64,000 nucleotides of DNA, from the NCBI GenBank assembly GCA_030040475.1, contig JASHTQ010000070.1, positions 1-64,000 of the forward strand, written 5' to 3'. Position numbers and translations under genes: made by a program. The notes beneath the pieces are model-generated. The model was not told the origin of the DNA. It was given only the letters and a program-made list of their open reading frames with translations, and ran no database searches. The stretch's first letter is position 1. Every line of letters starts with the position of its first letter. This document shows positions 1,452-64,000 of this stretch, one piece after another. The DNA is from Streptosporangiaceae bacterium. Its GTDB lineage: Bacteria; Actinomycetota; Actinomycetes; Streptosporangiales; Streptosporangiaceae.

Positions 1452-2723
1452 GTGACAAGCGCCGCCGAGCTTTCGTCGGAGCTCGAACTCACCCTCACCG
1501 GCGCCGGCGAGCCCGCAAGGCCGCTGGTCATCATCCCGCTCGAGCGCTGGCGGGACGCGCCGGCGGCGGAGATCGCCCGGGTTGCGCGGCTGGTGGCCGA
1601 CGCGCTGCCGGTGACGGCGGGCGTCTTGGCAGGTCCGCCGGCTCCGGCCCTGGTGCCCCTGATCGAGGCGTCGACGCTGACGCTGGCTGCCTCCTCGGCC
1701 GGCTCTGCTGACCGGGCGATCGTCCCGGTCGGCGATCTTGGCTGCGACCTCGGCGAGGCCATCACGCGGCTGCGGGCCGCCGTCGCGCACTCCCCGCGAG
1801 CGGCGGTCGCCTGCGGGCAGTTGGTGCGGCAGACCTCTGTCCTCGCGCCGCTGCCCGGCGACGGCACCACCGCGGCCCTGGCCGCCGAGGCGGCCGCGTA
1901 CTGCCTGCTGCTCGGCGGGCCGGAGTTTTCCCGCTGGCTCGGCGAACGGGGGACGCCGCGCCGCCGGCGGCCGCCCGCCGAGCCGGTGCGCGTCAGCCGT
2001 GACAACGGGCGCCTGTCGATCGTGCTCGACGACCCGGCACGGCGCAATGCGTTCGGTGCCCCGCTGCGCGAGGCACTGCTCGACGCGACGGCACTCGCCG
2101 AGGCGGACGACACGATCGAGTCCGTCGAGCTGTGGGGCGCGGGACCGGCGTTCTGCAGTGGCGGGGACCTTGACGAGTTCGGCACCGCGGACGACCTCGT
2201 CGCCGCGTACATGGTCCGGCTGGCCCGCGCCCCGTGGCGGGTGATCGACCGGATCGCGGCGAAGGTCACCGTCTACGCCCACGGGGCCTGCATAGGCGCG
2301 GGAACGGAAATCGCCGCCTACGCCGGCCGGGTCGTCGCCACCCCGGACGCGTATTTCGCGCTCCCCGAGGTGCGGATGGGTCTGGTACCCGGGGCCGGCG
2401 GCTCGGTCAGCGTGCCACGCCGGATCGGCCGCTGGCGGGCGGCGTGGCTGATGCTGACCGGGGACCGGCTTCCGGCTTCTGCCGCGCTGCGGTGGGGGCT
2501 CGCCGATGAGGTCATCGACGCTTCCCTGCCTGGACCGCGGACCTTAGCGAGCGGGCCTGCCGAGGGCCGTCTCACCAGGCAGGCGGCAGATCGCGGACCT
2601 GCAGCGCCCACGCGTCCGCCAGCCGCTGCGCCGAAGTGGCCAACCCGAGCTCTGCCGTCACGTCGACGCCGGCCGATCCCGGCCGGGCGGCCGCGCTCCC
2701 CACCCGCATCGGGGTCAGCGTGA
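1452..2723 (+). CDS. Enoyl-CoA hydratase/isomerase with long N-terminal domain
   Basis: Crotonase-fold enzyme acting on acyl-CoA. The recognisable core covers about residues 180-360: FCSGGDLDEF forms the first oxyanion-hole segment, GACIGAG the second, and PEVRMGLVPGAGG carries the conserved Glu. The first 180 residues are unusual; they contain weak crotonase-like stretches (AAVACGQLV, AAYCLLLGG) and may be a degenerate second crotonase domain. GTG at 1452 follows GGGAGGA. The last roughly 55 residues are Pro/Arg/Ala-rich and lie antisense to the end of the neighbouring CoA-transferase gene, so the natural end may be near 2547, where a TAG lies one frame over. That would need a frameshift or sequencing error. 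Confidence 0.8.
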   Translation: MTSAAELSSELELTLTGAGEPARPLVIIPLERWRDAPAAEIARVARLVADALPVTAGVLAGPPAPALVPLIEASTLTLAASSAGSADRAIVPVGDLGCDLGEAITRLRAAVAHSPRAAVACGQLVRQTSVLAPLPGDGTTAALAAEAAAYCLLLGGPEFSRWLGERGTPRRRRPPAEPVRVSRDNGRLSIVLDDPARRNAFGAPLREALLDATALAEADDTIESVELWGAGPAFCSGGDLDEFGTADDLVAAYMVRLARAPWRVIDRIAAKVTVYAHGACIGAGTEIAAYAGRVVATPDAYFALPEVRMGLVPGAGGSVSVPRRIGRWRAAWLMLTGDRLPASAALRWGLADEVIDASLPGPRTLASGPAEGRLTRQAADRGPAAPTRPPAAAPKWPTRALPSRRRRPIPAGRPRSPPASGSA

Positions 2724-4932
2724 GGCGCGGCGATACCGTGGGCATGACAGCCGCTCCCGACTCGACCGGCGCGGCGACGGTGAGCCCGCGAGAGCGCAGC
2801 CCCGGGTCGGACATCAACTCCGCCAGGCCGACGCGGCGCTGGGCCGCGATGCCCGCGGCGGTCAGGGTCTGCACCCAGGCGTCCGCGGTGCGGGTCAGCA
2901 GGAGAGCCGCTATCGCCGCCGCCAATTCCGCGTCGGTCAGCTCCTGTAGCCGTTGCTCCTGCAGTCCCTGCCGCCCCTGCAGTCCCTGCCGGCCGGTCAG
3001 GCACAGGCAGCGCTGCAGCTCGCCGATTTGATCCGCGGCCAGGCCGAGGAAGAACCATTCCCCGTCACTGCCCTGATAGAAGCGCTGCAGCGGGCCCGGG
3101 CCGCGCACGTCCCAGCCGCGCACGGCCGGCCGCGTGCGTCCCGGCTGTCCGATCAGGTACGTGCCGAGGTGCTGCGTCGCCGCCTGGGCGAGCGACGTTG
3201 CGACGCGCTGGCTCTGGCCGGTGCGCGTGCGCCGGTAGACGGCGAGCCCGGTCCCGAACGCGGCCAGCACGCCGGTGGCGATGTCGACGAGGTTGTACGG
3301 GCCGAGCACGGCCGGGGCGTCCCCCGCGAGATCCATGATGCCGGCGACGGCCTGGGCCTGCCGTTCGTAGCCGCGCCGCGCGCCCCACGGCCCGCTCTCG
3401 CCATAGCAGGTGATCGACGTGTAGACGAGACCTGGGTTGCGGGCGCGGGCTTGCTCGTATCCGAGGCGGTGCCGCTCGGCGACCCCGCCGGGAAAGTTGT
3501 GGAGCACCACATCCGTCCGGGCCAGCAGGCCGGCCAGCGCCGCCTGACCGCCGGGAGCGTCGATGTCGAGCAGGATGGACCGCTTGCCGCGGTTGAGGTA
3601 GCCGTGGCTGTTGATGGCCCGCTGCGGCGGGTTGATCTTGATGACCTCGGCCCCGAACTCCTGCAGGAGCCGTCCGGCCGTGGGCCCGGCGAGCACCTGG
3701 GTCAGGTCGAGCACCCGCAGTCCGGCGAGCGGCGGTGCCGGATCGGGCCGGCCTTCCCGCCGCGTCTGGCGCGGCGGGCTCGTCTGGCACGGCGGGCTCG
3801 TCTGGCGCGGCGGGCTCGACGCGAGCTCCGCGAGGATCGCACCGCGATCCTCGTCCGGCAGATGCCGGGGGCCGGGCGAGAAGTCCTCGTTCCCGGCAAG
3901 GCGAACCGCCGGGCCAGCCGTCCACACCTCGCCCAGCAGCGGATCGGCCAGTCTCACGACCGATCCGCCGCGGCGGGCGTGATCGTTGGCCAGCCACTCG
4001 CCGGGGGTGCGGACCATCGCGAGGGGCACGCCCGCCCCGGCTCCGAGCTCCTCCCACTGCGCGGCGGGACGCGTCTTGAACAGCGCGGCCAGGCGCTCGC
4101 GCAGCTTCGCCCTGTTGCCGGGATCGGCCAGCCGTTCCTGATCGAGCTCGGCGCCCCACGACGACACGCCGGCCGCCTCGGCGAACCAGACGATGAACCG
4201 GTGCAGCAGCGGATCGAACTGGACCCACCGCCCGTCGGCGCATTGGTAGACGCCGCTGCCGTTGGAGTCGGCCGCGGCCTCCCGCGCGTATCCGGCCGAC
4301 TTGAGGTAGCACCCGGCCGGCCCGATGGCGGTGAACATGGCGTCGAACAGCGGTACTTCGATCTCTTGCCCGAGCCCGGTGCTGAGCCTCGAGACCAGGG
4401 CCATGGCGATACTCGTCGCGGCCAGGAAGGCGGCGAAGTTCGAGGCGACCGGCACGGCGGAGTACGTCGGCTGGCTCCGGTCGAGGTCGGCCGGCCCGTC
4501 TCCCGTCCGCGCCCGGCAGTTCTCCGTGGCGGCGTCGATGATGCCCTCCCACGCCGCCAGCCCAGACCGCGGATCGTCCGCGCCGAAGCCCGGAATGGAG
4601 CAGTAGATCAGCCCGTCGTTCCGCCGCCGCGCCGCCGACGGGCCGAGGCCGACACGGTCGAGCACGCCCGGGCGGAAGTTCTCGACGACGACGTCGGCGC
4701 CGTCGATCAGGCTGGCCGCCGTGTCCCTGTCCGCGGGGTCGCCGAGGTCCAGGCCGATCCGCCGCTTACCCCGGTTCAGGAAGGCATCGGCGTCGTTGGC
4801 CCAGCGCGGGCCGCCAGGCGGGTCGATGTGGATGACGTCCGCGCCCTGGTCGGCGAGCAGCACCGCAGCCAGCGGCCCGGCGATGTACTGCCCGAAGTCG
4901 ACGACGCGGATGCCGTCGAGCGCTCCTGTCAT
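2572..4932 (-). CDS. CaiB/BaiF CoA-transferase, two fused domains
   Basis: A 786-residue protein with two class III (CaiB/BaiF) domains in tandem, roughly residues 1-370 and 400-740. Each opens with the family signature: GIRVVDFGQYIAGP then NRGKRRIGLDL, and GLRVLDLTQVLAGP then NRGKRSILLDI. Such enzymes move CoA between a thioester and a free acid. At the position where many relatives carry the nucleophilic Asp (GYD...QA), both halves show Glu (AWEGIIDAAT and GYERQAQAVAG), so activity may be altered; this is an alignment by eye. The linker is coded by three copies of an 18-bp repeat and another Gln/Gly-rich stretch is also duplicated. ATG overlaps the preceding CoA-transferase stop by ATGA; last gene of the operon led by the binding protein. 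Confidence 0.88.
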   Translation of the reverse strand: MTGALDGIRVVDFGQYIAGPLAAVLLADQGADVIHIDPPGGPRWANDADAFLNRGKRRIGLDLGDPADRDTAASLIDGADVVVENFRPGVLDRVGLGPSAARRRNDGLIYCSIPGFGADDPRSGLAAWEGIIDAATENCRARTGDGPADLDRSQPTYSAVPVASNFAAFLAATSIAMALVSRLSTGLGQEIEVPLFDAMFTAIGPAGCYLKSAGYAREAAADSNGSGVYQCADGRWVQFDPLLHRFIVWFAEAAGVSSWGAELDQERLADPGNRAKLRERLAALFKTRPAAQWEELGAGAGVPLAMVRTPGEWLANDHARRGGSVVRLADPLLGEVWTAGPAVRLAGNEDFSPGPRHLPDEDRGAILAELASSPPRQTSPPCQTSPPRQTRREGRPDPAPPLAGLRVLDLTQVLAGPTAGRLLQEFGAEVIKINPPQRAINSHGYLNRGKRSILLDIDAPGGQAALAGLLARTDVVLHNFPGGVAERHRLGYEQARARNPGLVYTSITCYGESGPWGARRGYERQAQAVAGIMDLAGDAPAVLGPYNLVDIATGVLAAFGTGLAVYRRTRTGQSQRVATSLAQAATQHLGTYLIGQPGRTRPAVRGWDVRGPGPLQRFYQGSDGEWFFLGLAADQIGELQRCLCLTGRQGLQGRQGLQEQRLQELTDAELAAAIAALLLTRTADAWVQTLTAAGIAAQRRVGLAELMSDPGLRSRGLTVAAPVESGAAVMPTVSPRLTLTPMRVGSAAARPGSAGVDVTAELGLATSAQRLADAWALQVRDLPPAW
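2958..2993. repeat. 18-bp tandem duplication inside CoA-transferase gene
   Basis: Two adjacent 18-bp units differ at one base and encode a repeated Gly-Leu-Gln-Gly-Arg-Gln block in the C-terminal domain. The copy number keeps the reading frame. Confidence 0.8.
3763..3816. repeat. Three 18-bp tandem repeats in interdomain linker
   Basis: Units at 3763, 3781 and 3799, one with a single substitution, encode a Ser-Pro-Pro-(Arg/Cys)-Gln-Thr repeat between the two CaiB-type domains. Confidence 0.85.
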
Positions 4933-6140
4933 GGTTCTTCTCGTGGTTCTTCTCTTGGTTCTGCGAGCTCGCGCAGGACCTCCTCGGTGTGCTCGCCGAG
5001 GCCCGGGGCATGCCTCCGCAACGCCCCGCTGCCCAGCCCGAACCGAACGGGATCCCGCACCAGCCGGTAGGTGCCCTCGGTCGGATGCTCGATGTCCGCG
5101 AACAGCCCGACGGCCGCGAAGTGGTCGTTCTTCTCCAGCTCATCGAACGACACGATGGGCACGGCGGGGATGGACAACGCGTCGCAGTGCCGCATCCAGT
5201 AGTCGACCGGCTCGTTCCTGACCGCCTCGCCGATCATCTCGGCCAGCACGGCGAAGTTGACCGTGCGGTCGTGCCTGGTCCCGAAGCGCGGGTCGGCGGA
5301 CAGCTCCGGACGGCCGACGAGCTCGAAGAAGTCCTGCCAGTTCCGGTCGGTGTACGGGAGCAGGCAGATCCAGCCGTCGGCGGCCCGGTACGGCTTGCGG
5401 TGGACGGTCCGCAGGCGGTCATAGCCGAACGGCCCTTCCGGCGGGACGAACGCGGCTCCGCTGAGATGCTCGACGAGCATGAACGCGGCAACGCATTCGG
5501 CCATCGGCACTTCGATGTAGTCGCCGAGCCCGGTGCGCTCGCGGCGGAACAGCGCGGCGATCACCGCGTAGACGATGTGCAGCGCCGATACCTTGTCGCC
5601 GATCACCGAGGGAAAGTAGCCCGGCGGGGACTCAAACCAGGTCGGCAGCGACGCGATCCCTGTGGCTGCCTGGATCACGTCGTCGTAGGCGGCCTTGCCC
5701 GCGTACGGCCCGCCGGAGCCGAAGCCGTTGGCGATGCAGTACACGAGCTCAGGCCGGACCGCCGACAGCGCCTGGTAGCCGAGCCCCAGGCGGTCGCAGG
5801 CGTCGGCGCGCATGTTCGTGACGAAGACGTCGGCCGACCGGATCAGGTCGAGCATGCGCTCGTGGCCGGCCGGATCCTTCAGGTCGAGCACGACGCTGCG
5901 CTTGTTGCGGTGCAGGTTGAACACGTTCCAGCCCATGCCGGGCGATCGCATCGGGCCGGCGTTCCGCAGCGGGTCACCGCCCGGCGGCTCGACCTTGATC
6001 ACGTCGGCGCCGAGGTCGCCCAGGATTCGCGCCGCCAGCGGCCCCATCAAGATCGTGGATACGTCCACCACCCGGATTCCGTCCAGCGGCCCTGGACGCG
6101 GGTCTTCGCCGGCGATGGCTGCCTTCGGCGGGTCCGTCAT
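4929..6140 (-). CDS. CaiB/BaiF CoA-transferase (single domain)
   Basis: Standard-length class III CoA-transferase of 403 residues. GIRVVDVSTILMGP at the N-terminus and HRNKRSVVLDL form the family core. The sequence GPYAGKAAYDDVIQAATG contains a candidate catalytic Asp, unlike the fused protein encoded next to it. The C-terminus is a short Glu-Pro-Arg repeat made by a 12-bp tandem duplication at 4933-4962. It overlaps the downstream CoA-transferase by ATGA and sits 4 bp after the MaoC gene. It probably loads the imported acid onto CoA for the hydratase pair encoded upstream. Confidence 0.9.
   Translation of the reverse strand: MTDPPKAAIAGEDPRPGPLDGIRVVDVSTILMGPLAARILGDLGADVIKVEPPGGDPLRNAGPMRSPGMGWNVFNLHRNKRSVVLDLKDPAGHERMLDLIRSADVFVTNMRADACDRLGLGYQALSAVRPELVYCIANGFGSGGPYAGKAAYDDVIQAATGIASLPTWFESPPGYFPSVIGDKVSALHIVYAVIAALFRRERTGLGDYIEVPMAECVAAFMLVEHLSGAAFVPPEGPFGYDRLRTVHRKPYRAADGWICLLPYTDRNWQDFFELVGRPELSADPRFGTRHDRTVNFAVLAEMIGEAVRNEPVDYWMRHCDALSIPAVPIVSFDELEKNDHFAAVGLFADIEHPTEGTYRLVRDPVRFGLGSGALRRHAPGLGEHTEEVLRELAEPREEPREEP
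4933..4962. repeat. 12-bp tandem repeat at a gene 3' end
   Basis: Two and a half 12-bp units encode the Glu-Pro-Arg-Glu repeat that ends the CoA-transferase just before its stop codon. Confidence 0.75.
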
Positions 6141-6144
6141 CGGC

Positions 6145-6621
6145 TCACCTCACCGGGTCGTGGCTCGCCCAGCCGCCGGGCGGCGGGGTTCCGGCGATCA
6201 CCTCGGCATGACCTGGGGTGGTGATGCCGAGCCGGTCGTTCTCCAGCCACACGTCGAGCTCTATGCGCCGGCGGCCGTCCTGCTGCGACTGCGACTTGCC
6301 GGTGATCCGTGCCCTGCACCGGACCACGTCGCCCGGCCGGTTCATCTGGCGCATCTGGAAGTCCAGGTGCGACACCCAGCCCGCCGATCCGACCCAGTCG
6401 GTGAGCAGGCGGCTGAGCAGGCCCTGCGTCCAGCTCGTGTTGTAGAAGATGCCCGGATGGCCGCTGGCCACCGCATAGTCCTGGTCGTGGTGCAGCGGGG
6501 CCCAGTCCTGTCCCCCGCTGACCTGCAGTACCATCGTCGTCGCCGTGAGCTCGAGCTCGAAAGACCCGATCTCGTCACCGACCTGGACGGCGTCCCAGCC
6601 GGGCCACGTCGGCGCGCTCAT
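6145..6621 (-). CDS. MaoC-like hot-dog dehydratase, catalytic half
   Basis: A 158-residue single hot-dog protein. The segment GGQDWAPLHHDQDYA near residue 38 keeps the Asp and His of the hydratase-2 motif (D-x-x-P-x-H), and GHPGIFYNTSW follows. The product of the gene that overlaps it upstream has the same fold without these residues, so the two likely form one heteromeric enoyl-CoA hydratase, as known for actinobacterial MaoC pairs in fatty-acid and steroid metabolism. It would hydrate a trans-2-enoyl-CoA to a 3-hydroxyacyl-CoA. The start overlaps the partner stop by ATGA. Confidence 0.85.
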   Translation of the reverse strand: MSAPTWPGWDAVQVGDEIGSFELELTATTMVLQVSGGQDWAPLHHDQDYAVASGHPGIFYNTSWTQGLLSRLLTDWVGSAGWVSHLDFQMRQMNRPGDVVRCRARITGKSQSQQDGRRRIELDVWLENDRLGITTPGHAEVIAGTPPPGGWASHDPVR

Positions 6622-7163
6622 CCGGCGGTCTCTGCGGCTTCGGCCAGCTGAGCGGGGGTGCGGTGCAGTAGGAGCGTGTTGCGCCAGATCGCGACGACGG
6701 CCTTCCGCTGATTGGAGATCGTCCCCATGGTCTTGACCCAGATCGACTTGGGATCAAGCTTTGTCGGCTTGATGTAGACGTCTTCGACCTGCCACTCGCA
6801 CTGCAGCTCGTCGCCCACCCGTACCGGCGCCAGGAACTCCCACGAGACGCCCATGTTGACACCGCGGTCGCCGAGTCTCGGCACCCCCCTTGGCGCCTGG
6901 CTCGGCTCGGACCGCAGCCCCGGCCAGGCACCGTCGGACACGAAGTACCTGATAAACGCGGGAGGGCAGATGACCTCGCCGTAAGGTCCTGCCGCCGCGG
7001 CTTGCCTGTCGAGGAAGAGCGGATTGGTTTCGCCGGTCATCTGGCAATAACGCCGGATCGGATCGTATTCGACCGGGTACCGCCCGCGCGAGATGCCCAG
7101 GGACTTCCCGCGCCATTCCCGCTGTACGGCTGCCAAGTCAAATTGGCTCTCCGGCACGATCAC
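6618..7163 (-). CDS. MaoC-like N-terminal (FAS1-type) dehydratase, structural half
   Basis: A 181-residue hot-dog protein of the type often described as FAS1-like dehydratase domain. The position of the catalytic motif reads TGETNPLFLD, so the Asp and His found in the partner are Glu and Phe here; this half therefore probably shapes the acyl pocket. It is followed with ATGA overlap by the catalytic half and preceded 34 bp upstream by the binding-protein gene. Length and gene order match two-subunit enoyl-CoA hydratases of actinobacteria. Confidence 0.8.
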   Translation of the reverse strand: MIVPESQFDLAAVQREWRGKSLGISRGRYPVEYDPIRRYCQMTGETNPLFLDRQAAAAGPYGEVICPPAFIRYFVSDGAWPGLRSEPSQAPRGVPRLGDRGVNMGVSWEFLAPVRVGDELQCEWQVEDVYIKPTKLDPKSIWVKTMGTISNQRKAVVAIWRNTLLLHRTPAQLAEAAETAG

Positions 7164-7197: not shown

Positions 7198-8424
7198 TCA
7201 CGAACTCGCCGGAATGATCGCGCCCTTGGAGACCTGGTAATAAACCAGCTGCTTGCCGCATGTCGTGGGGGAAACGCTCAAGCCAGGGCAGCTTATCGAT
7301 GAGCCGCCGAGCACAACCGGCCCCTTGTAACCGGCGATCAGCTGGGAGATCGCCGTCGAGTTCAGGGTGCCCGCGCCCGTCAGCACCTGCGCGGCCGTCA
7401 TGACGATGCCCCAGCCGATCTCGGCGAACGGGCCGGGAGTGCCGCCCGGCCCGTACTGGGACCACGCGCTGTGGAACAACGAGACGGCGGCGCTGGCTGG
7501 ACCGCTTGCCGAGGCTAGCTGTGAGTCCTCGGGAAGAATCCAGCCGTCGTAGTAGCTCTGGTTCTGGGCTATCTCAGCGGCCGTGGGGCAGCTCGCACCG
7601 CTGAGCACCAGCTTCGGCTTGATACCGAGGTTATGGAACGCCTCCCCGATCTCCTGGCACTGGACGGAGTCCAGCCACACCACATCCGCGCTGCCGGCGT
7701 CGGAGACCGCGATCTGGGGAGTGACGTTGGCGTCCGCGTCGGGGATTTCGGTCGCCTTGTAGGTCAGGCCGTCCGCCTTCAGCTGCTTTTCCGCCAGTTC
7801 GGCGCCTGGCACCGTGGACGCGTCCGAGTCGTAGATGATGCTGACCGTCTTAGGGTGCAGGCTGGCGATGTAGTTGGCGATGGCCAGGTAGTAGGCGTTG
7901 CCGCCGGTGTAGTAGAAATACGTGTCCTTGGCTGCCGAGTCGGCCGGGGTGGCCGCGAGAGCGCCGAGCACCGGCTTGCCCGCGGCCTGCATCGCCGAGT
8001 AGAACGAGCCGCCGCCGAGGTTGAGCCCCACTATGGCGAACGGCATCTCGGAGTCGTTGGCGAACTTCTGGCCGCACTCTTGCGCCGACTGCTCGTCATT
8101 CTTCAGGTCGCACGTGACCAGGGATACGTGCCTGCCGTCGATGCCGCCATGCGCGTTCAGGTAGGCGGCCGCGGCGCTCGCGGCCTGCGTGACGGCCGGG
8201 AACGCCGTCGTGCCTGTCTGCGAACTCGCGAAGCCGATCTGCAAGGTGGCGGCCGACGTGGCCGGGGCGGACGTGGCCGCGCTCGGGGTCGCCGTGGTCG
8301 ATGCCGCACCGCCTGAACTCGCGCTCGAGCATGCGGCCGTCATCGTAGCGACGACGATCAGCCCGGCCATCGCGCCTACGCAGGATCTCAGCTTCCCGAA
8401 GCGCCGCGGAACCATCGGTCTCAT
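7198..8424 (-). CDS. ABC transporter substrate-binding lipoprotein, Liv type (copy 1)
   Basis: A 408-residue extracytoplasmic binding protein. The signal peptide has basic RRFGK, a hydrophobic stretch and a lipobox TAAC, then a Ser/Ala-rich linker. The mature part is a periplasmic-binding type I fold: LQIGFASSQTGTTAFPAV, then CDLKNDEQSAQECGQ, a block shared by all four binding proteins of this window. ATG at 8424 is preferred over the in-frame ATG at 8454: GGGAAGG lies 5 nt before it, and the operator and likely transcript start abut 8454. It leads the operon with the MaoC pair and two CoA-transferases, which suggests that its ligand is the acid they process. No permease is encoded in this operon. 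Confidence 0.88.
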   Translation of the reverse strand: MRPMVPRRFGKLRSCVGAMAGLIVVATMTAACSSASSGGAASTTATPSAATSAPATSAATLQIGFASSQTGTTAFPAVTQAASAAAAYLNAHGGIDGRHVSLVTCDLKNDEQSAQECGQKFANDSEMPFAIVGLNLGGGSFYSAMQAAGKPVLGALAATPADSAAKDTYFYYTGGNAYYLAIANYIASLHPKTVSIIYDSDASTVPGAELAEKQLKADGLTYKATEIPDADANVTPQIAVSDAGSADVVWLDSVQCQEIGEAFHNLGIKPKLVLSGASCPTAAEIAQNQSYYDGWILPEDSQLASASGPASAAVSLFHSAWSQYGPGGTPGPFAEIGWGIVMTAAQVLTGAGTLNSTAISQLIAGYKGPVVLGGSSISCPGLSVSPTTCGKQLVYYQVSKGAIIPASS

Positions 8425-8455
8425 GCTGGCCTTCCCGTTCTCTTGGCGGTGCATT

Positions 8456-8638: not shown

Positions 8639-9703
8639 CTAACCAGGAATCCGCCGCCATGCCGGGCGCGATAGCTGGCCGGTCGGGGGCCCGAAGGCCG
8701 ACTGCTTGCCCGGGCCGCCCACGACAAGGACACCGAGGTCCTCGGGACATGTGATGATCGGTATGCGGTCCAGCCGCTGCGCATCCAGGCCGAGCGAGTG
8801 ATAGTAGGGCTTCTGGCTGTGGTGATACCGCAAGAAATCGAATTGCGCCTTTCCGATCATGGCAGATGGCAGGCGAGCGTGCTGGAAAATGAACTCCTGG
8901 ATATCGCGGCGGCTGAATCCGTCGTTGGCGATCACGGCCGCATGTTCCGGGCTGAGGAACAGAAACTGCTCTGATGTGCCCAGGTAAACCGAGTTCGTGC
9001 CGCCGCCCACCATCGCGGCGCACACCGTCGTGAGCAGGTCCTCCGCGGTGTAGCTGGCCGAGTCGTGGATGTTGTGCGGATTCTCAAGCGCGGCCACGGT
9101 GACAATCGACTCATCAGGTGAGTAGCCGAGCGACACCCGGTAAGGCTCCCAGGGAGAATCGGCCTCGTTCTCCGCGAAGCAATAGCTGAACTTGGAGGGC
9201 TGGCCCTGCGTCGACATGTCGCCGACCCCTGGCGCGGCGCCGCCCAGATTGATCATCAGAAGGCGTATCGCTCTGCCGATCGTCGAATTTGCCCGGGACC
9301 CGCCGCCAAAGGCGCCCGAGCGCGAGTTCATCTTGATCCGGTCGGCGATCGGGCCGCTGACCAGTATCATCGGAGAATGCGGGGCGGTAGTAGCCTGGAC
9401 GCCGATAAGGTTGAATCGGTCGTCCATCATCGCCTCCACGGCCGCCACAACGACAGGCATGTACTCCGGGCGGCACCCGGCCATTGCCGAATTGATGGCA
9501 ATCTTCTCGATAGTGACCGGGGCCCAAGCCGGGGGAATCTTTCCGATGACCTCGTCGGCGTCTCGTCCGGAAGACGCGATGAACTCGCCCACGCGCTGCG
9601 GAGAGGCCGGGACCACGGGCAGGCCGTCGCCGAGCCCTCGTCGTTCCAGGTCCTCCATCATGGCCTCGTAGCTCTGGTAGGTCCACACCTCTGAGGTCGT
9701 CAT
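8639..9703 (-). CDS. Conserved partner protein of a UGSC-family (seleno)protein
   Basis: A 354-residue protein of uncharacterised function. From memory of similar pairs, its features are DGLPVVPASPQRV near residue 27, KIAINSAMAGCRPEYMPVVV, NLIGVQATTAPHSP, the Gly-rich AFGGGSRANSTIGRA, and TQGQPSKFSYCFAENE. Proteins with this pattern are commonly encoded beside UGSC proteins. Here the start ATG overlaps the stop of the UGSC gene by ATGA, so the pair is translationally coupled. Cysteines lie in AGCRPE, YCFAE and ITCPED and could take part in redox or metal chemistry, but I cannot assign a reaction. No signal peptide or membrane segment is visible. Confidence 0.75.
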   Translation of the reverse strand: MTTSEVWTYQSYEAMMEDLERRGLGDGLPVVPASPQRVGEFIASSGRDADEVIGKIPPAWAPVTIEKIAINSAMAGCRPEYMPVVVAAVEAMMDDRFNLIGVQATTAPHSPMILVSGPIADRIKMNSRSGAFGGGSRANSTIGRAIRLLMINLGGAAPGVGDMSTQGQPSKFSYCFAENEADSPWEPYRVSLGYSPDESIVTVAALENPHNIHDSASYTAEDLLTTVCAAMVGGGTNSVYLGTSEQFLFLSPEHAAVIANDGFSRRDIQEFIFQHARLPSAMIGKAQFDFLRYHHSQKPYYHSLGLDAQRLDRIPIITCPEDLGVLVVGGPGKQSAFGPPTGQLSRPAWRRIPG

Positions 9704-10242
9704 GATGGTGATCCAGGTCCCCAGATGAGCGCGGCCACTACGACGGCCAGATCCCGGCCGCGTGCCACGGCCAACTCCGGCGCGATACCGCCAAGCGGCG
9801 GCGGGATCTCAACGAAACGAAGGCTCGCGGCCCCCATGCCGTCGGCGATAATCCGTCCGAGCCCGACGAACGTCTCGGTGGTGACGACGATCGCCGGCAC
9901 ACCTGCCTGCTCGAGGAAAACCGAGTCGCGGACACTCCACGACGTGCAACCGCCTCAATCGGCCATCGCGGAGACGACGAGGTCGCTGGTCGCGATGATC
10001 TCCGCTCTGATCGGCTCGGGGACGGGTATGTTGGCGTGCTCCTTCTCGAACCGGCGGATCGCGCCTACCGGGTACCCGCCGAGGCCTTCGATCAGGCCCG
10101 CGAAGAGCTGGTCGACGTTCGGCTTCCTGTTGCTCAGCAGCGCCACGTTCGGCTTAGCCCGGTTCACCTGCCGGACGTCCATGGAGGCGGCGCTCGGGGC
10201 CTCTCGCACGCCTGGGTTGAGGATCGAGAAACTGGTCATCAT
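9700..10242 (-). CDS. UGSC-family selenoprotein with in-frame TGA (Sec96)
   Basis: Read through one in-frame TGA (9957-9955), this gene gives a 180-residue protein. The first 95 residues run from MMTSFSILNPG to DLVVSAMAD. After TGA the same frame continues GGCTSWSVRDSVFLEQAGVP and IVVTTETFVGLG, then PPPLGGIAPE, to a stop at 9702-9700. The match to the UGSC (seleno)protein family, in which selenocysteine or Cys precedes Gly-Ser-Cys and a TSWSVHDxxxLE-type block, is strong on both sides of the TGA. Here the motif is U-G-G-C. A hairpin follows the TGA at SECIS distance. ATG at 10242 follows GGAAGG; a second ATG is adjacent. Function is unknown, though a redox Sec/Cys pair is likely. A plain nonsense mutation is the alternative, and a conventional gene caller would split the gene. 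Confidence 0.85.
9925..9943 (-). promoter_or_regulatory. Bacterial SECIS-like hairpin
   Basis: In the mRNA the stem GUCGUGG / CCGCGAC (7 pairs, one G-U) closes a 5-nt loop AGUGU. The loop begins 18 nt after the UGA and has G as its second base, meeting the usual bacterial SECIS criteria of distance and loop G. Confidence 0.65.
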
Positions 10243-10278
10243 GACACCTTCCGCGCCGAGGGTCGCGAGCCCGCCTGA

Positions 10279-10306
10279 CCTATCGGGTCATTGTACAACA
10301 CTGGGC
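10279..10306 (-). promoter_or_regulatory. Probable promoter of the UGSC selenoprotein gene
   Basis: On the minus strand TACAAT (10295-10290) is a good -10 about 48 bp before the ATG. The -35 is not clear. CGATAGG at 10285-10279 resembles one arm of the operator found at other operons, but the paired half-sites are lost, so regulation may differ here. Confidence 0.4.
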
Positions 10307-10496
10307 GGATTGAACCACAACACCGGAAGGGCATGACTTGACCGCTCGGCGAGCGTGAGGAGGCTGCGCGGTTGGGTGTTCTCGTCTCGCGGGCGCAGTC
10401 AGCCGCCGGGCCGGCCGGGGATGTCTTGCCGAGCGTGTTGCGGGGACCATTCCGCGCACGCTGTAAGGCGATCCCGGCGGTCGCGGACTGGGGCTG

Positions 10497-14649: not shown

Positions 14650-15861
14650 CTACAGCTTGCCGATGAAGTGCAGCTTGCCGCTCTCCACCTTGTAGTAGAT
14701 GATCCCGTTCGCGCAGGTCGACGTCGCCGGCGCGGGCCCGGGGCAGCTTATGGACGTGTCGCCCATCACTACCGGTCCCTTGTACGACTGCAGGAGGTGG
14801 GCTATGGCGCTTGACGTCAGTTCCGGTGCCCCGCGCAGCACGTCCGCCGCCGTCATGACCAGGCCCCAGCCTTCTTCGGCGAAGTTCGGGATCGGCTGAC
14901 CCGGATAGTGCTGATTCCACACCTTGTTGAACAGGGCCACGTCGGCGTCGCCTGCCGACCCCACGGCGGAGGCGATCTTCGTCGTCGACGGAACGATCCA
15001 GCCGTTGAGCAGGGCCGCGTTGCTCTCAGCCTCGCTGGTCGTCGGGCAGCTGGCCGAGCCTCGTACTATCGGCGGCGAGATTCCCAGGGTTCGGAAAGCC
15101 TCGGCCACCGCCAGGCAGTTGACCACGGAAACCTCGACGAAGCCCGCCGTGCGAGCCCCCGATTCCGCCACCTGTGCCGTGACGTCAGCGGCTCCGGGCG
15201 GAACCTCGATCGCCTTGAACGCGATGCCGTTCTCCTTCATCACCTGGGCCTCGATCTTCTCAAAGGAGACCGTCGATGCCTCACCCTCGTAAATCATGGA
15301 GACGGACTTTGGCCGGGGGTTCAAGTTCAGGATGTCGGCGGCCGCGGACTGGTAGAAATTCCCGCCGGGAAAGTAGAAGTACGTGTCCGGGGCGGCGTAG
15401 TCGGCCGGCGTAGTGGCACTGCCGCCGAGCGTTGGCTTATGCGCCGCCGCCATGGCCGCGTAGTACGGCGCGCCATTGAAGTTCAGCCCGGAAATGGCGA
15501 ACGGCATCGAGCTGTTATCCGCGAATTCCTGCCCGCATTCCTGAGATGACTGGGCATCGTTCTTTACGTCGCAGGTAATCAGCGTCACTTTGTGATGATC
15601 GATGCCGCCGGCCTCCTGGTTAAGATATTCCACGGCAAGCTGGGCAGCCACGGTAACCCCGGGAAATGACGTCGTGCCGGTGTTCATGTTCGCCAGCCCG
15701 ATGTCCAGTACCGCGCCGGAACTTGCCGTGGCCGACGCTGACTGCGAAACGCTGGCCGTGCCGCTGCTGCTGTTGCTGCTGCCAGCGCAGGCAGCGAGGA
15801 TCAACACCGCGCTCGAGACCGTGGCCGCCACGGTTAGCCGGGCCAGGTGAACTGCGCACAT
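14650..15861 (-). CDS. ABC transporter substrate-binding lipoprotein, Liv type (copy 2)
   Basis: A 403-residue secreted lipoprotein: short hydrophobic signal, lipobox LAAC near residue 25, Ser-rich linker, then LDIGLANMNTGTTSFPGV and the shared CDVKNDAQSSQECGQ block. ISCPGP and CANGIIYYKV lie at the C-terminus. ATG at 15861 has GGAG nine nt upstream. It follows binding-protein copy 3 in the same operon, an unusual tandem of two receptors without a permease between them. The ligand is probably an organic acid, amide or similar small molecule rather than necessarily an amino acid. Confidence 0.88.
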   Translation of the reverse strand: MCAVHLARLTVAATVSSAVLILAACAGSSNSSSGTASVSQSASATASSGAVLDIGLANMNTGTTSFPGVTVAAQLAVEYLNQEAGGIDHHKVTLITCDVKNDAQSSQECGQEFADNSSMPFAISGLNFNGAPYYAAMAAAHKPTLGGSATTPADYAAPDTYFYFPGGNFYQSAAADILNLNPRPKSVSMIYEGEASTVSFEKIEAQVMKENGIAFKAIEVPPGAADVTAQVAESGARTAGFVEVSVVNCLAVAEAFRTLGISPPIVRGSASCPTTSEAESNAALLNGWIVPSTTKIASAVGSAGDADVALFNKVWNQHYPGQPIPNFAEEGWGLVMTAADVLRGAPELTSSAIAHLLQSYKGPVVMGDTSISCPGPAPATSTCANGIIYYKVESGKLHFIGKL

Positions 15862-15974: not shown

Positions 15975-17210
15975 CTACTGGATCGGCTCAACTTCGTAGA
16001 GGTCGCCGCCGCGCACCTGGTAAAGGTAAAGACCGCTCGTGCATGTCGCCGTATACGGCGACGGTCCCGGGCAGGAGATCGTGCTCGAGCCCATCACGAC
16101 CGGGCCCTTGTAGCTCTTGATGGTCGCCAGGACCGATGCGGACGTGAAGGCGGTCGAGGACTTGAACATGTTCGCGGCCGTGAGGATGATGCCCCAGCCA
16201 AGTTCACCGAACGCTCCGATCGTGCCGCCGGCACCGTACTTGCCGCGCTCGGAGTTGAACAGGGCCACGTCCGGGTCGGTGTTGCCGCTGACCGACGCGA
16301 CCTTGTAGTTCTCGACGAAGTACCAGTTCTGGTACAGCGACGGATCCTGGGCGATCGTGGCCAGGTCGAGGCAGCCCGGGTCGCCGATGACCTTCTTGGG
16401 CGTGATCGACAATGACTTGAACGCAATCGCGACCCTCGAGCAGTCGACCGTGAACGCCATGGTCAGGTCGGATTTGCCGGCCCCGGAGACGGCCACCTGG
16501 GCGGTGACGTTCGCGGTGTTCGCCGGGACCTGGGTCGCGGTCACCTTGATGTCCGGGTTGAGGTGGCTGGTGACGTACTTCTCCCCCGCCTCGGACGATG
16601 CCTCGCCCTCGTAGATGTAGGACAGCGACTTGATCCCGCTGGTGTTCAGGTAGTGCACGAGCAGCGGGTAGTAGTTGGAGCCCGGGTAGTAGAAGTAGGT
16701 GTCCGGCGGGGCATTGTCGGCCGGCGTGATTCCCTCGATGCCGAGCGTCGGCTTGTGCGCTGCCGCCATCGCCGCGTAGTACGGAGTCCCAGCCAGGGAC
16801 TGAGCGAGTATCGCGAACGGCATGTTCGGGTTATCGGCGAATTCCTCACCGCATTCCTGAGCCGACTGGGCGTCGTTCCTCATGTCGCAGGGCACGAGTT
16901 CGACCTTGCGGCCGCCGAAGCCGCCCATGTTGGCGTTGACGTACTTCACGGCGGCCTGAGCGTTGGCGAGGATCGCCGGGAACGACGTGGTGCCCGTCTC
17001 CATGGTGGCGAACCCGACCTGGAGCACGCTGCCTGTGGCGGTGTCTGATCCGCTCGGCGCCGGCTGGCTGGTCGAGCCCGCCGACGTCGTGGCCGTGTTC
17101 CCGGCGCTCGGGGCGGAACTGGAGGTGCCTGCGCTGCTGCAAGCGGCCGCCGCGAGCAGCCCAGCCATGATGAGGACGGCTACGGCGTGTCTGCGTCTTG
17201 AGAGGTGCAT
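15975..17210 (-). CDS. ABC transporter substrate-binding lipoprotein, Liv type (copy 3)
   Basis: A 411-residue lipoprotein with signal peptide (MHLSRRRHAVAVL, lipobox AAAC) and Ser/Thr-rich linker. The mature part begins LQVGFATMETGTTSFPAI and contains CDMRNDAQSAQECGEEF. It is much closer to the copy at 53370 (both read IYEGEASSEAGEKYVT and VIGDPGCL) than to its neighbour, so the two may bind related ligands. First gene of an operon running to the IclR at 12265; a clear promoter lies about 100 bp upstream. Confidence 0.88.
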   Translation of the reverse strand: MHLSRRRHAVAVLIMAGLLAAAACSSAGTSSSAPSAGNTATTSAGSTSQPAPSGSDTATGSVLQVGFATMETGTTSFPAILANAQAAVKYVNANMGGFGGRKVELVPCDMRNDAQSAQECGEEFADNPNMPFAILAQSLAGTPYYAAMAAAHKPTLGIEGITPADNAPPDTYFYYPGSNYYPLLVHYLNTSGIKSLSYIYEGEASSEAGEKYVTSHLNPDIKVTATQVPANTANVTAQVAVSGAGKSDLTMAFTVDCSRVAIAFKSLSITPKKVIGDPGCLDLATIAQDPSLYQNWYFVENYKVASVSGNTDPDVALFNSERGKYGAGGTIGAFGELGWGIILTAANMFKSSTAFTSASVLATIKSYKGPVVMGSSTISCPGPSPYTATCTSGLYLYQVRGGDLYEVEPIQ

Positions 17211-40145: not shown

Positions 40146-42713
40146 TCAAAAGACGCCCTTGTCGGTCAGCTCGTCGATCCGTTCCTGCGACAGCCCGAGG
40201 ATCTCGCGCTGGACGTAGTCGTTATCCTGCGCGTAGCTCGGCCCGGAACGGTCGAACGGCCCGCCGATGTAGGCCGGGGTCTTCTCGAACTTCACCGGTA
40301 TCTCCTTGACGGGCCACCAGCCGTTGTCGCGCTGCCTCAGCTCGACCTGCCATCCGTCGTGCTTGAGCTGCGGATCGATCTCGCACCGGTCCTCCGCGCT
40401 CTGGCAGACGCCGGCCGGGACGCCGCTGGCCTGCAGGGCGGCCATGAGCTCGTAGCCGTCCCAGGAGACCGTGAGCTCGCCCAGTCGGCGCTCAAGCGCG
40501 GCGGAGTGCTCCAGGCGGGCAGCCAGGGTCGCGTACGCCGGATCCGCGAGCAGGCCCGGGTCGCCGAGGACGCCGACCAGGCCGCGCCACTCCTGCTCGG
40601 TGAAGCAGGCGATCGCGATCCAGCGGTCCTCGCCCGAGGCGCGGAATGCCGCGTGCGGCGCGGCCGGCTTGTACGGCGAGGCGTTCCCGTAGCGCTGCCA
40701 GCGCCGGCCGTTCGCCGCGAAGTCGAGCGGAGCGGTCCCGGTCAGGTACATACCGGTCTCGACCTGCGAAGAGTCGACCCAGCACCCTTCGCCGGTCACC
40801 CGCCGGCGGTAGAGCCCGGACACGATGGCCAGCGCCATGTTGTAGGCGCCGAACCAGTCGAGGTAGGAATACCCGATGCCGGCCGGCGGGTACGGCTCGG
40901 GCAGCCCGGACATCTCCGTCAGGCCGGCGAAGGCGGCCGCGACCGGGCCGTAGCACCGCAGCCGCCCGTAGACGCCGGCCTGGCCGAGGCCGGACTGCTG
41001 GACGTAGACGATGTCCGGCTTGAGTTCCTTCAGGCGCTCGTAGCCGAAGCCCATCCGCTGCATGGTCCCCGGCGAGAAACCCTCGGTGACGACGTCGGCC
41101 GTCTTGATCAGCTCGCTCAGGATCGCCCTGCCCTCGTCCGTCTTGAGGTCGAGCGAGAACGAACGCTTTCCTGAGTTGATCTCCATGAAGCCGCCGCCGC
41201 GGTTCCAGTCCTTGGGCCCGAGAGTGTGCATCAGCGGGCCGGTAGCCGCGTCGCGTTCGGCCCGGCCGCCGGGCGGGACCGGCCCGTTGCTGAACCGCAT
41301 GCCGTCGGGGCGGGACAGGTGCTCGACCTTGATCACCTCGACGCCGAGCGCCGTCAGGAACCGTCCGGCACCCCCGCTGGCCAGCAGCCACGACAGGTCG
41401 ATGATGCGGATGCCGTCGAGCGCGAACGGCTTGCCCCTCTTGCTCAGCGGCCGCTCGCCGAGCGGACGTGCCTTCGGCGGCGGAGCCGTCACCGGTGCCG
41501 GCCGCGCCGCCGGCAGTTCGGCGAAGACCTCATCGTCGTGCTCGCCGAGCAGCGGTGCCCGCGGCCCGGTACGCCAGGGCACGCCGGGCGCCAGCCACTT
41601 GGCGACCACGTACCTGAACGTCCTGCCGAGCTCCGGGTGCTCGACGTCGGCGAGGCTCCCCCTGGACAGGAAGTGCTCGTCGTCCAGGATCTCCTCCGGC
41701 CGGCGCAGCGGAGCCCACGGCAATCCCTCCGCCTGGGCCTCGCGCCAGATCTCCCGGTCGAATGAGAAAGCGCGGATGAACCGGTCGACAAGCGCACCGT
41801 AGTAGACGTTGAATTTCTCCGAGGCCCGCACCTCGGGCTCGAGGTACCCCGCGTCCTCCAGGTCCAGTTGCATGCCGTGCTTGGCCATCAGGCGCACGGT
41901 GCCCGGGAAGGCATCCACGTAGCCGCGCAGGTAGGTGCGGTAGGGCAGCAGCCACCGCCCGTCCGCGGTCTGGCCGATCGTCGGCCCGCTGATCAGCGGC
42001 GAGGAATGCCGGCAGGTCTGGCGCAGGTGCACCCGCCGGGCGAAGACCCAGTTCGGGATGTCGGTCTCGGTGTTCTTGCTGACGGCCTCGTGGACCGAGA
42101 CCGCGAGGTACTGGCCCTCGCCTGTCTCGAGCCGGTGGTTGAGCGCGCCTACCACGCCGTAGGCGGCCATCTCGCCGGTGATGTGGTAGGCCTGCCACAT
42201 GGCGGGCGCTACCGGCGGCGTGTCGTAGTTTCCCTCGGGGTCCGGGGAGTAGCCGCAGTTCATCATCACGCCGCCGAGGGCAAGATGAACCAGGTCGCTG
42301 CCCTTGTACTGGCTCCACGGGCCCGAGTCACCGAACGCGGATACCCGGATGTGGACCAGGCGGGGATGGCGTCCGGCCAGCTCCTCGCGGCCCAGGCCGC
42401 ACCGCTGCAGCCAGGCCTCGCCGCGGGTCTCAAGCAGGACGTCGGCGCTGGCGATCAACGCCGCGAGCTTCCTTTTGCCCTCGTCGGCCTCGTGGTCGAC
42501 GATCACGCCGCGTTTCCCGAAGTTGTAGTTCCAGAAGTACAGGCTCTGGTCGGGATCGCCGCTGTCTTGGTAGAAGGGACCGATGCGGCGCGTGCCCTCC
42601 CCGCCAGGCGGCTCGACCTTGATCACGTCGGCGCCGAGGCCGGCCAGGACCTTACCGGCGTATTCGCCGATCTCATCGCAGAGCTCGATGACCCTTATCC
42701 CACGCAAGAACAT
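40146..42713 (-). CDS. CaiB/BaiF CoA-transferase, two fused domains (855 aa)
   Basis: Two class III CoA-transferase domains: residues 1-400 begin FLRGIRVIELCDE and GADVIKVEPPGGEGTRR, and about 430-850 begin GIRIIDLSWLLASGGAGRF and NSGKRSFSLDL. Near the catalytic-Asp position the first half reads YKGSDLVHLALGG and the second CYGPVAAAFAGLT, so the second half may lack the nucleophile. Long fusions of this kind may act on bulky CoA esters (inference). ATG at 42713 starts the recognisable fold. Confidence 0.88.
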   Translation of the reverse strand: MFLRGIRVIELCDEIGEYAGKVLAGLGADVIKVEPPGGEGTRRIGPFYQDSGDPDQSLYFWNYNFGKRGVIVDHEADEGKRKLAALIASADVLLETRGEAWLQRCGLGREELAGRHPRLVHIRVSAFGDSGPWSQYKGSDLVHLALGGVMMNCGYSPDPEGNYDTPPVAPAMWQAYHITGEMAAYGVVGALNHRLETGEGQYLAVSVHEAVSKNTETDIPNWVFARRVHLRQTCRHSSPLISGPTIGQTADGRWLLPYRTYLRGYVDAFPGTVRLMAKHGMQLDLEDAGYLEPEVRASEKFNVYYGALVDRFIRAFSFDREIWREAQAEGLPWAPLRRPEEILDDEHFLSRGSLADVEHPELGRTFRYVVAKWLAPGVPWRTGPRAPLLGEHDDEVFAELPAARPAPVTAPPPKARPLGERPLSKRGKPFALDGIRIIDLSWLLASGGAGRFLTALGVEVIKVEHLSRPDGMRFSNGPVPPGGRAERDAATGPLMHTLGPKDWNRGGGFMEINSGKRSFSLDLKTDEGRAILSELIKTADVVTEGFSPGTMQRMGFGYERLKELKPDIVYVQQSGLGQAGVYGRLRCYGPVAAAFAGLTEMSGLPEPYPPAGIGYSYLDWFGAYNMALAIVSGLYRRRVTGEGCWVDSSQVETGMYLTGTAPLDFAANGRRWQRYGNASPYKPAAPHAAFRASGEDRWIAIACFTEQEWRGLVGVLGDPGLLADPAYATLAARLEHSAALERRLGELTVSWDGYELMAALQASGVPAGVCQSAEDRCEIDPQLKHDGWQVELRQRDNGWWPVKEIPVKFEKTPAYIGGPFDRSGPSYAQDNDYVQREILGLSQERIDELTDKGVF

Positions 42714-42777
42714 GACCGCTACACTCCGGACGTCGAGAGCTGACGGACAAGACCAGGCGGCATCCCGGCCAGGCCGC

Positions 42778-43989
42778 TCATGCGGCGGCCCGTTCCAGGA
42801 TGTGGATCGCGCAAGCGGAACCAAGCCCGATGACATGTGCCATGCCGACCTTCGCGTCCGCTATCTGGCGGTCGCCGGCCTCACCGCGCAGGTGTGTTGT
42901 CACCTCGAAGATGTTGGCCACGCCGGTCGCGCCGAGCGGGTGGCCCTTGGACAGCAGGCCGCCGGAGACGTTGACGGGGGTCCTGCCGGTCCGCCACGGC
43001 GCCCCGCTGTCGATGAAGTCCCCGGCGCCGCCCGGCTCGCAGAGCCTGAGGTTGTCGTAGTGCAGCAGTTCGGCGGTGGCAAAGCAGTCGTGCAGCTCGA
43101 CGAGATCGAGGTCCTCAGGCCCGACCCCCGCGCGGGCGTAGGCCTGGTCGGCGGCGTTGCGGGTGAGGGTGTTCACGTCGGGCTGCACCAGCCCGTCGGC
43201 GACGTAGGGATCGGAGGTCATCACCGAGGCGGAGATCTTGACCGCTCGCCGTCTCACCTCGCCCGGCATGGTGGCCAGCCGCTCCCCCGACACCAGGACG
43301 GCTGCGGCCCCGCCGTCTCCGGTCGGGCAGCACATCAGCACCGTATTCGGGTAGCTGATCATCTCCGCCGCCATGATCTCTTCCAGGGAGAATTCCTTCC
43401 GGTACTGGGCCAGCGGGTTAAGCGCCGAATGCGCATGGTTCTTCACGGCGATCTTGGCGAACTGCTCGAAACCCACCCCGTCGTGCCTGGCGGCGTACGT
43501 CATTCCGGCCTGGGCGAAGACGCCCGGCATCAGGCCGGTACCCAGGACGCCCTCGATGTTCATGACCGCGCCGTACTTGCCGGCTGGCACGTACCTGTCG
43601 GCCGCCACCGGGGCGGCCTGGCCGAGCAGCCCCTTCTTGCCCATCTGCTCGCAGCCCACGGCCAGCCCGATCGAGGCCTCGCCCGCGGCGATGGCCAGGT
43701 ACGCCACGCGGACCGCGGTCGCGCCGGTGGCGCACGCGTTGAGCACGTTGTACGCCGGGATGCCCGTTTGCCCGATGCGCCGCTGGATCTGCTGGGCGGG
43801 GTAGGGCCGCGCCTGGTTGACGCTGCCCGCGGCCAGCACGTCCACGTCGGCCACCGTGAGCCCGGCATCGGCAAGCGCGGCCAGCGCCGCCCGTCCGCCG
43901 AGATCGTAGGCGTCCGCGTCGGCGTAGCGCCGGAAGGGCGTCATCGCGACGCCGATCACCCATATGCTGCCGGATTCGGGTCTTGGCAT
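42778..43989 (-). CDS. Acetyl-CoA acetyltransferase-like thiolase (SCP-x type)
   Basis: A 403-residue thiolase with catalytic residues present: the nucleophilic Cys in NACATGATAV, His in ELHDCFATAE and GHPLGATG near the C-terminus. It should cleave 3-ketoacyl-CoA with CoA. This contrasts with the two Cys-less homologues in the window. A DUF35 gene lies 41 bp upstream and a fused CoA-transferase 64 bp downstream. ATG at 43989 begins PRPESGSIWVIGVAMTPF. Confidence 0.92.
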   Translation of the reverse strand: MPRPESGSIWVIGVAMTPFRRYADADAYDLGGRAALAALADAGLTVADVDVLAAGSVNQARPYPAQQIQRRIGQTGIPAYNVLNACATGATAVRVAYLAIAAGEASIGLAVGCEQMGKKGLLGQAAPVAADRYVPAGKYGAVMNIEGVLGTGLMPGVFAQAGMTYAARHDGVGFEQFAKIAVKNHAHSALNPLAQYRKEFSLEEIMAAEMISYPNTVLMCCPTGDGGAAAVLVSGERLATMPGEVRRRAVKISASVMTSDPYVADGLVQPDVNTLTRNAADQAYARAGVGPEDLDLVELHDCFATAELLHYDNLRLCEPGGAGDFIDSGAPWRTGRTPVNVSGGLLSKGHPLGATGVANIFEVTTHLRGEAGDRQIADAKVGMAHVIGLGSACAIHILERAAA

Positions 43990-63416: not shown

Positions 63417-64000
63417 TCACGGAGACGCTGGCGCATCCGGGGAGCCTGGCGCGCCCGAGGACTGGGCGATGAGCTGCTCGCGCCAGGTCGTGTCGAAGTG
63501 CATGGCGACCCGGCTCAGCGTCCCGCCGTCGGTCGTGGGCAGGCAGACACCGGACATGAAGCGCGACTCGTCGGACACCATGAACAGCGCGGCAAGGGCG
63601 TTGTCACGAAGGCTCGGCGGCTTGTCCAGCCGCAGCGGAATCGGAGACGTGGCCGGATCCCAGTTTCCCGCGGCCTCCTCGTAGGACATGCCGACGACCG
63701 GCGCCGTCCTTGGCCTGAGGAAGTTGGGTGACATGCCGTGGGTGGGGCAGATGGCATTCACCCGGATGCCGTGCTGGCCGAGGTCGAAGGCCAGCCCGTG
63801 CACCAGCCCGTTCACGCCCGCCTTGGTCGCGCTGTAAGCCGACATGCCCGGATAGCCCACGAACGAAGCCGCCGAGGAGGTGCAGAGGATGACGCCGCCG
63901 CCCGCGGGCCGCATCACCCTGGCCGCGTGCTTGCACGACAGCCAGACCCCGGTGAGGTTGGTGTCCAGCACCTCGCGGAAATCCTCGTAGGTCTGCTCCC
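63417..64000 (-). CDS. SDR family oxidoreductase (partial, runs off the window)
   Basis: The C-terminal 194 codons of a short-chain dehydrogenase. DTNLTGVWLSCKHAARVM, Ser in CTSSAAS, YSATK active site and the late SGVCLPTTDGG are visible. The frame is open to base 64000 (EQTYEDFREV precedes DTNLTG), so the nucleotide-binding loop and start lie outside. It lies just upstream of the Rieske operon promoter. Confidence 0.88.
   Translation of the reverse strand, partial: EQTYEDFREVLDTNLTGVWLSCKHAARVMRPAGGGVILCTSSAASFVGYPGMSAYSATKAGVNGLVHGLAFDLGQHGIRVNAICPTHGMSPNFLRPRTAPVVGMSYEEAAGNWDPATSPIPLRLDKPPSLRDNALAALFMVSDESRFMSGVCLPTTDGGTLSRVAMHFDTTWREQLIAQSSGAPGSPDAPASP

Follow-up and report, generated by a model that had tools for sequence, protein, structure and literature searches.

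The window, by which we mean the whole 64,000-nt stretch of Streptosporangiaceae DNA analyzed, carries on its minus strand a 95-codon ORF (10242-9955) which closes at a TGA (9957-9955). If this triplet is taken as a residue, the frame continues to a second TGA (9702-9700) and gives a product of 180 amino acids, with no other stop. The earlier note had proposed that two short frames are joined here, in one reading frame, through a single TGA. This triplet is indeed the only stop within 10242-9703, and the residues quoted around and beyond it (AMAD-U-GGCTSWSVRDS, VTTETFVGLG and PPPLGG) are found in the minus-strand translation. Third-position GC is 0.91 in the 95 codons upstream of the TGA, 0.75 in the 84 codons downstream and 0.80 in the next gene, which encodes the partner protein considered below. 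As the far end of the UGSC frame overlaps the ATG of the partner gene (9703), the product that fits is the one of 180 and not that of 95 amino acids. The features of the locus are collected in Table 1.

Table 1. Features at and around the UGSC locus of the window.
Feature	Position	Strand	Remarks
Probable selenoprotein gene, UGSC family	9703..10242	minus	180 codons including Sec-96; stop TGA 9702-9700; PF24696 match; alignment A2 with 35 relatives
In-frame TGA, putative Sec codon (residue 96, U-G-G-C motif)	9955..9957	minus	TGA at the same column in relatives
Possible ribosome-binding sequence GGAAGG before ATG 10242 or ATG 10239	10247..10252	minus	Inferred from reading the sequence
SECIS-like hairpin, 8-bp stem (one U-G pair), loop GUG	9925..9943	minus	Begins 11 nt after the UGA
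Partner protein, 354 aa	8639..9703	minus	No Pfam or NCBIfam match at E 0.01; ATG overlaps UGSC stop (ATGA)
Substrate-binding protein, branched-chain amino acid type ABC transporter, next downstream	7198..8454	minus	PF13458, 2.8e-22
Two MaoC/hydratase-like genes (6618-7163, 6145-6621) and CoA-transferase III (4929-6140)	4929..7163	minus	PF13452, PF02515

The gene is a member of the UGSC family, which had already been described by 2008. Its joined product matches the Pfam UGSC family (PF24696) over residues 7-172 at 6.3e-36, with 124.5 bits against a gathering score of 25. The match spans both sides of the TGA, which bears out both the family identity and the homology past the stop that the earlier note had claimed. 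All 36 UGSC proteins of alignment A2 match PF24696 as well. The window protein is nevertheless a divergent member: it is 46-47% identical to its best relative, and has Pro at position 148, where His is at least 90% conserved in A2. With NCBIfam NF041046 it aligns over residues 32-161 (1.4e-27), and as its 96.5 bits lie under the NCBI cut-off of 125, the NCBI equivalog label would be withheld from it. Sequence searches of solved structures returned unrelated enzymes as best matches, both with the window protein alone (E 0.8) and with the UGSC profile (E 0.017).

A protein search with the read-through sequence gave 579 candidates, none of them at E 0.001, and a genome scan with it matched 130 stretches, none of which was confirmed. 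As both searches reach close relatives only, the partner protein was chosen as bait. Alignment A1, built from 28 of the 120 partner proteins listed and including that of the window, was searched against a collection holding one genome per species, and from the 576 confirmed places we took the best 80 forward. These loci and the window were then scanned with TGA read through, and gave 88 HMM rows corresponding to 86 distinct UGSC proteins, each of two TAG proteins appearing as two half rows. Among these 86 proteins from the best 80 of 576 loci and the window, the codon at the residue-96 column is TGA in 78 and TAG in two, from Geodermatophilus and Blastococcus (L067, L070), while one protein has Gly. 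The remaining five carry the Cys that the earlier note had suggested looking for at position 96. Homologues all ending at residue 95 would, according to the same note, have pointed to a simple nonsense mutation; they continue beyond it. In a second search, covering 151 genomes of the phylum to which the nearest relative belongs, 36 UGSC matches were found in 10 genomes, each with exactly one TGA, and in 30 of the 30 matches fetched this TGA is located at the residue-96 column. One of these, L112, is the gene already counted in the first search as the nearest relative, L001. UGSC genes are expanded in two of the genomes, with 12 matches in G157 and 8 in G142, again with one TGA per match.

Where the active column holds TGA or Cys (83 proteins), the next residues are GSC in 71, GAC in six, GGC in five and GSS in one. 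The window has the arrangement of Sec or Cys followed by G-x-C, in the form U-G-G-C. The earlier note had presented this form as a variant not met before. It is a real departure from U-G-S-C, but it is not new, as GGC occurs in 5 of the 83 proteins: the window shares U-G-G-C with four other TGA proteins (L020, L034, L065 and L074). U-G-A-C occurs in six proteins, including that of the nearest relative. The window protein stands out more by its Pro at position 148 than by this motif.

Just past the UGA, the RNA of the window can form a hairpin, GUCGUGGA-GUG-UCCGCGAC, with all eight pairs of the stem and an energy of -11.0 kcal/mol for a 22-nt piece. A conserved hairpin with a G in the loop at this place is what is looked for in a bacterial selenoprotein gene. 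We analyzed it in alignment A4, which comprises 74 (73 distinct) of the 80 Sec-type rows, that is, of the 78 TGA and 2 TAG rows with the window included; five remote or partial copies (L005:190, L006:2205, L020:13835, L035:17747 and L068:100) and L059, a near-duplicate of L021, were left out. Over the 74 rows, 95.0% of 584 cells are paired, and both sides have changed somewhere at six of the eight pairs. Eight pairs are formed in 52 rows, seven in 15 and six in 7. None of 500 shuffles of A4, which ignore kinship, attains any of five measures. When kinship is kept and the partner strand is slid by 1-3 columns, pairing falls to 18-48% and at most three pairs show double changes. The covariation score is 0.119 for the true helix and does not exceed 0.088 in the slid controls; the control slid by +3 comes close in double-change cells (12 versus 14 in the true helix) and equals it in further pair types (10). 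In the five Cys-type rows, which are few, 80% of the cells are paired, with no double changes.

The loop begins with GU in 74 of 74 Sec-type rows and in none of the five Cys-type rows. In the window, this GU requires the Ser codon AGT, which accounts for 28 of the 938 Ser codons (3%) in the 36 window genes used. When synonymous codons were drawn at window usage (200,000 trials), eight pairs arose in 2.3% of the draws, and eight pairs together with the GU loop in 0.19%. Folding energies are less distinctive. Within a 48-nt stretch, the hairpin is not the minimum-energy fold of the window RNA (codon-resampled z of -0.8; mean over the 74 Sec-type rows, -1.4), and a 38-nt stretch of the window RNA gives a shuffle z of -0.27. 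Neither the whole window nor the region 9500-10400 has any match in Rfam.

The Sec machinery was searched for in genomes behind the best 80 loci, SelB and tRNA-Sec in 20 of them and SelA and SelD in 9. SelB scores above cut-off in 14 of 15 Sec-type (TGA or TAG) genomes, in none of five Cys-type genomes and in 2 of 14 controls; the sole Sec-type genome missing it is one of 1.3 Mb. Both SelA and SelD are above cut-off in 4/4 Sec-type and 0/5 Cys-type genomes. The tRNA-Sec model is less specific, exceeding its cut-off in 5 of 14 control genomes. Among the 15 Sec-type genomes, 12 have matches above 60 bits and three have matches of 40-44 bits; matches of 47-51 bits are present in three Cys-type genomes. 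ARAGORN, applied to 9 of the 30 tRNA loci L081-L110, names the best match tRNA-Ser in each of the five Cys-type genomes. In the genome of the nearest relative, selA, selB and selD are accompanied by a tRNA-Sec with anticodon TCA; both TAG genomes have a tRNA with anticodon CTA, which ARAGORN calls tRNA-Pyl. According to an excerpt of PMC5330540, the use of UAG in Geodermatophilaceae, UGSC-motif proteins included, has been published. The selD genes in the genomes of L001 and L023 contain one in-frame TGA each, as expected of a Sec-containing SelD. Within the window, a tRNA search found none, and 47 of its 48 ORFs (all but ORF 63417-63971), scanned against Pfam, include no sel gene.

The occurrence of TGA, TAG or Cys at one column in the relatives, the covarying hairpin and the sel genes that track the codon in 20 genomes indicate that TGA 9957-9955 is very probably the Sec codon of a full-length UGSC-family selenoprotein, and support the selenoprotein reading of the earlier note. 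SelB and tRNA-Sec would recode this UGA in the host, helped by the hairpin at 9943-9925; residue 96 would be selenocysteine, with C99 as its resolving cysteine. A nonsense mutation would explain the same stop in another way: a Cys-type UGSC gene would have gained it and be left as a pseudogene or as the source of a 95-aa N-terminal piece only. The divergence of the window protein and the loss of the nearly invariant His-148 agree with such decay. We consider it very improbable, however, as the family normally carries TGA here (78/86 and 30/30), the frame past the TGA is intact and coding-like in composition, and the window has kept 8/8 hairpin pairs together with a GU loop which demands the rare AGT and is seen in 0/5 Cys-type genes. 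Even less credit can be given to a code in which TGA is reassigned to another amino acid, or to plain leaky read-through. A changed code would give an identical-looking open frame, but 35 of the 48 ORFs called in the window, including the 95-codon piece of the UGSC gene, end in TGA, and the triplet therefore functions as a stop there. Moreover, residue 96 falls on the catalytic Sec/Cys column and is followed by the covarying hairpin.

The family of the 354-aa partner protein is very large, 7499 of 7999 scored candidates passing E 0.001. Among the best 80 of 576 loci, which were chosen by the partner, the UGSC gene adjoins the partner gene or is fused to it in 72. In these linked loci UGSC is fused with the partner in one frame in 16 cases (12 of which form alignment A3), separate and upstream in 47, and downstream in 9. 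The other eight loci have no nearby UGSC gene inside the limits used, the partner lying at a contig end in two of them. A part of the 2008 paper (PMC2398784) describes UGSC fused to a domain named Unknown_1, which is likely to be the same protein as the partner. One natural fusion (L045) is predicted to fold with a pLDDT of 89.6 and a pTM of 0.90. A search of solved structures with the partner profile gave an unrelated enzyme as best match (E 0.13). Profile comparisons gave probabilities of 0.1% against a GrdE-like profile of three sequences and 1.7% against the GrdB/PrdB profile, and the partner is thus unrelated to both. An apparent homology between UGSC and the partner (probability 98.2%) was spurious: it came from two fusion proteins with UGSC tails, and dropped to 0.1% once these were removed.

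The UGSC profile was also compared with that of GrdB/PrdB, built from 19 of 20 loci fetched from genomes of the relatives; the twentieth, L145, was omitted because its frame stops at a TAG. All 19 sequences have TGA at their own Sec position. With hhalign, the two profiles match with a probability of 94.2% over 72 columns, in which the Sec residues of both are aligned and so are the Cys residues (E 1.1e-7, an E-value for a single comparison). When the four UxxC columns are masked in both profiles, the same columns still match with a probability of 87.4% (E 3.7e-6, likewise for a single comparison). Two subsets of the GrdB/PrdB sequences gave 81.3% and 84.8%, the reversed UGSC profile 0.2%, and six unrelated families 0.2-6.5%. 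UGSC therefore appears to be related in sequence to the Sec region of the GrdB/PrdB superfamily, a relationship that our literature search did not retrieve. None of the 14 families matched at E 1 by any of the 36 UGSC rows is PF07355, and the partner is not GrdE-like; we therefore keep the window protein out of the GrdB/PrdB family proper.

Genes of the GrdB/PrdB type (PF07355) score above cut-off in 13 of the 19 UGSC-carrying genomes searched (L141-L160). These genes look truncated, as the best matches reach the last position of the model, which lies just before the TGA. The omitted frame, L145:1201-2175 (minus), comes from the Blastococcus genome of L070 and is GrdB/PrdB-like with TAG at the Sec position; as this genome has a Sec-type tRNA with anticodon CTA, the frame is probably another UAG-encoded selenoprotein.

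GrdB/PrdB chemistry is the basis of the reductive cleavage by Sec that we propose. UGSC would be made together with the partner from the overlapping gene, and both may act as one enzyme, in a complex. Relying on the relationship with GrdB/PrdB and on the uptake and CoA genes nearby, we tentatively suggest that a small substrate, carboxylic or resembling an amino acid, would be cleaved reductively at its alpha carbon, driven by thiols, with Sec attacking and C99 resolving; both the reductase chemistry shared with the partner and its substrate are put forward as conjecture. In a wider sense, and with equal caution, UGSC and its partner might constitute a very widespread and uncharacterised selenoenzyme, two-subunit or at times fused, that is a distant offshoot of GrdB/PrdB and operates in oxygen-using bacteria, the partner replacing the pyruvoyl subunit, and that cleaves alpha-substituted small acids before their activation with CoA.

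A UGSC selenoprotein that folds like thioredoxin and serves in thiol redox generally, rather than a reductase resembling GrdB/PrdB, would be compatible with the UxxC motif, and an extract of the 2008 paper (PMC2398784) suggests a Trx-like fold for UGSC. In extracts of two papers, this one included, UGSC and PrdB are treated as separate families. The window protein model (pLDDT 89.7, pTM 0.83) consists of five alternating strand-helix units with Sec right after the third strand. This seems unlike the strand and helix order of thioredoxin. The GrdB/PrdB match persists after masking, and the gene is located among genes for uptake and CoA metabolism. A thioredoxin-like role seems unlikely to us on these grounds, although less so than either of the explanations that deny a Sec codon.

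The surroundings agree with the "aerobic-looking catabolic island" in which the earlier note had placed the gene. Upstream of the UGSC gene there are genes for an IclR regulator and a mycofactocin-type SDR, and farther off in the window lie P450, HpaB-like, luciferase-like and ring-hydroxylating Rieske genes, thiolases and more CoA-transferases. The MaoC/hydratase-like gene 6145-6621 scores 26.9 bits with PF01575, for which the cut-off is 27. The window encodes four periplasmic binding proteins of the kind that handles branched-chain amino acids (7198-8454, 14650-15861, 15975-17210 and 53370-54587), three of them within 10 kb. Among the relatives listed for a transporter gene, the closest one that bears an organism name comes from a Frankiales bin (53%), with other actinobacteria behind it, and the host is likely to be an uncultured actinobacterium. 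Three long proteins (2572-4932, 40146-42836 and 48408-50747; 786, 896 and 779 aa) contain two CoA-transferase III stretches each. The neighbours of the relatives' loci were tallied for 123 of 208 ORFs (alignment A6). As no Pfam family occurs in more than 8 of these 123 proteins (TctC 8, CoA-transferase III 6, Amidohydro_2 5), no substrate can be read from the neighbours.

The UGSC gene is, in all probability, a selenoprotein gene which standard gene calling splits in two, within a catabolic island that looks oxygen-using. According to the part of PMC2398784 consulted, UGSC ranks with the most abundant selenoprotein families in the Global Ocean Sampling data, where it has 255 proteins, and an excerpt of a 2026 review (PMC13188914) describes the functions of such families as largely uncharacterised. 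Of greater interest is the enzyme proposed for UGSC and the partner together: the link with the Sec region of GrdB/PrdB, taken together with the tight pairing with the partner, leads to a testable hypothesis of a two-subunit reductase.

Among known systems, the locus is closest to the UGSC family itself (PF24696, NF041046; the "UGSC-containing protein" of PMC2398784), with which it has in common a Pfam match over nearly its full length, the placement of UxxC, the TGA codon, the downstream hairpin and the partner gene. It differs from the usual members in having U-G-G-C and not U-G-S-C, SVRD and not SVHD, and Pro in place of His-148, and in its NF041046 score below the cut-off. The UAG-decoded UGSC proteins of Geodermatophilaceae, as far as an excerpt of PMC5330540 describes them, are the same protein with the same hairpin in L067 and L070, but there the codon is TAG and the tRNA has a CTA anticodon, whereas the window has TGA. 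With selenoprotein B of the glycine, sarcosine, betaine and D-proline reductases (GrdB/PrdB, PF07355), the likeness is a profile match over 72 columns around Sec; the window protein has far fewer residues than the GrdB-type protein seen at full length in L142, and its partner does not resemble GrdE.
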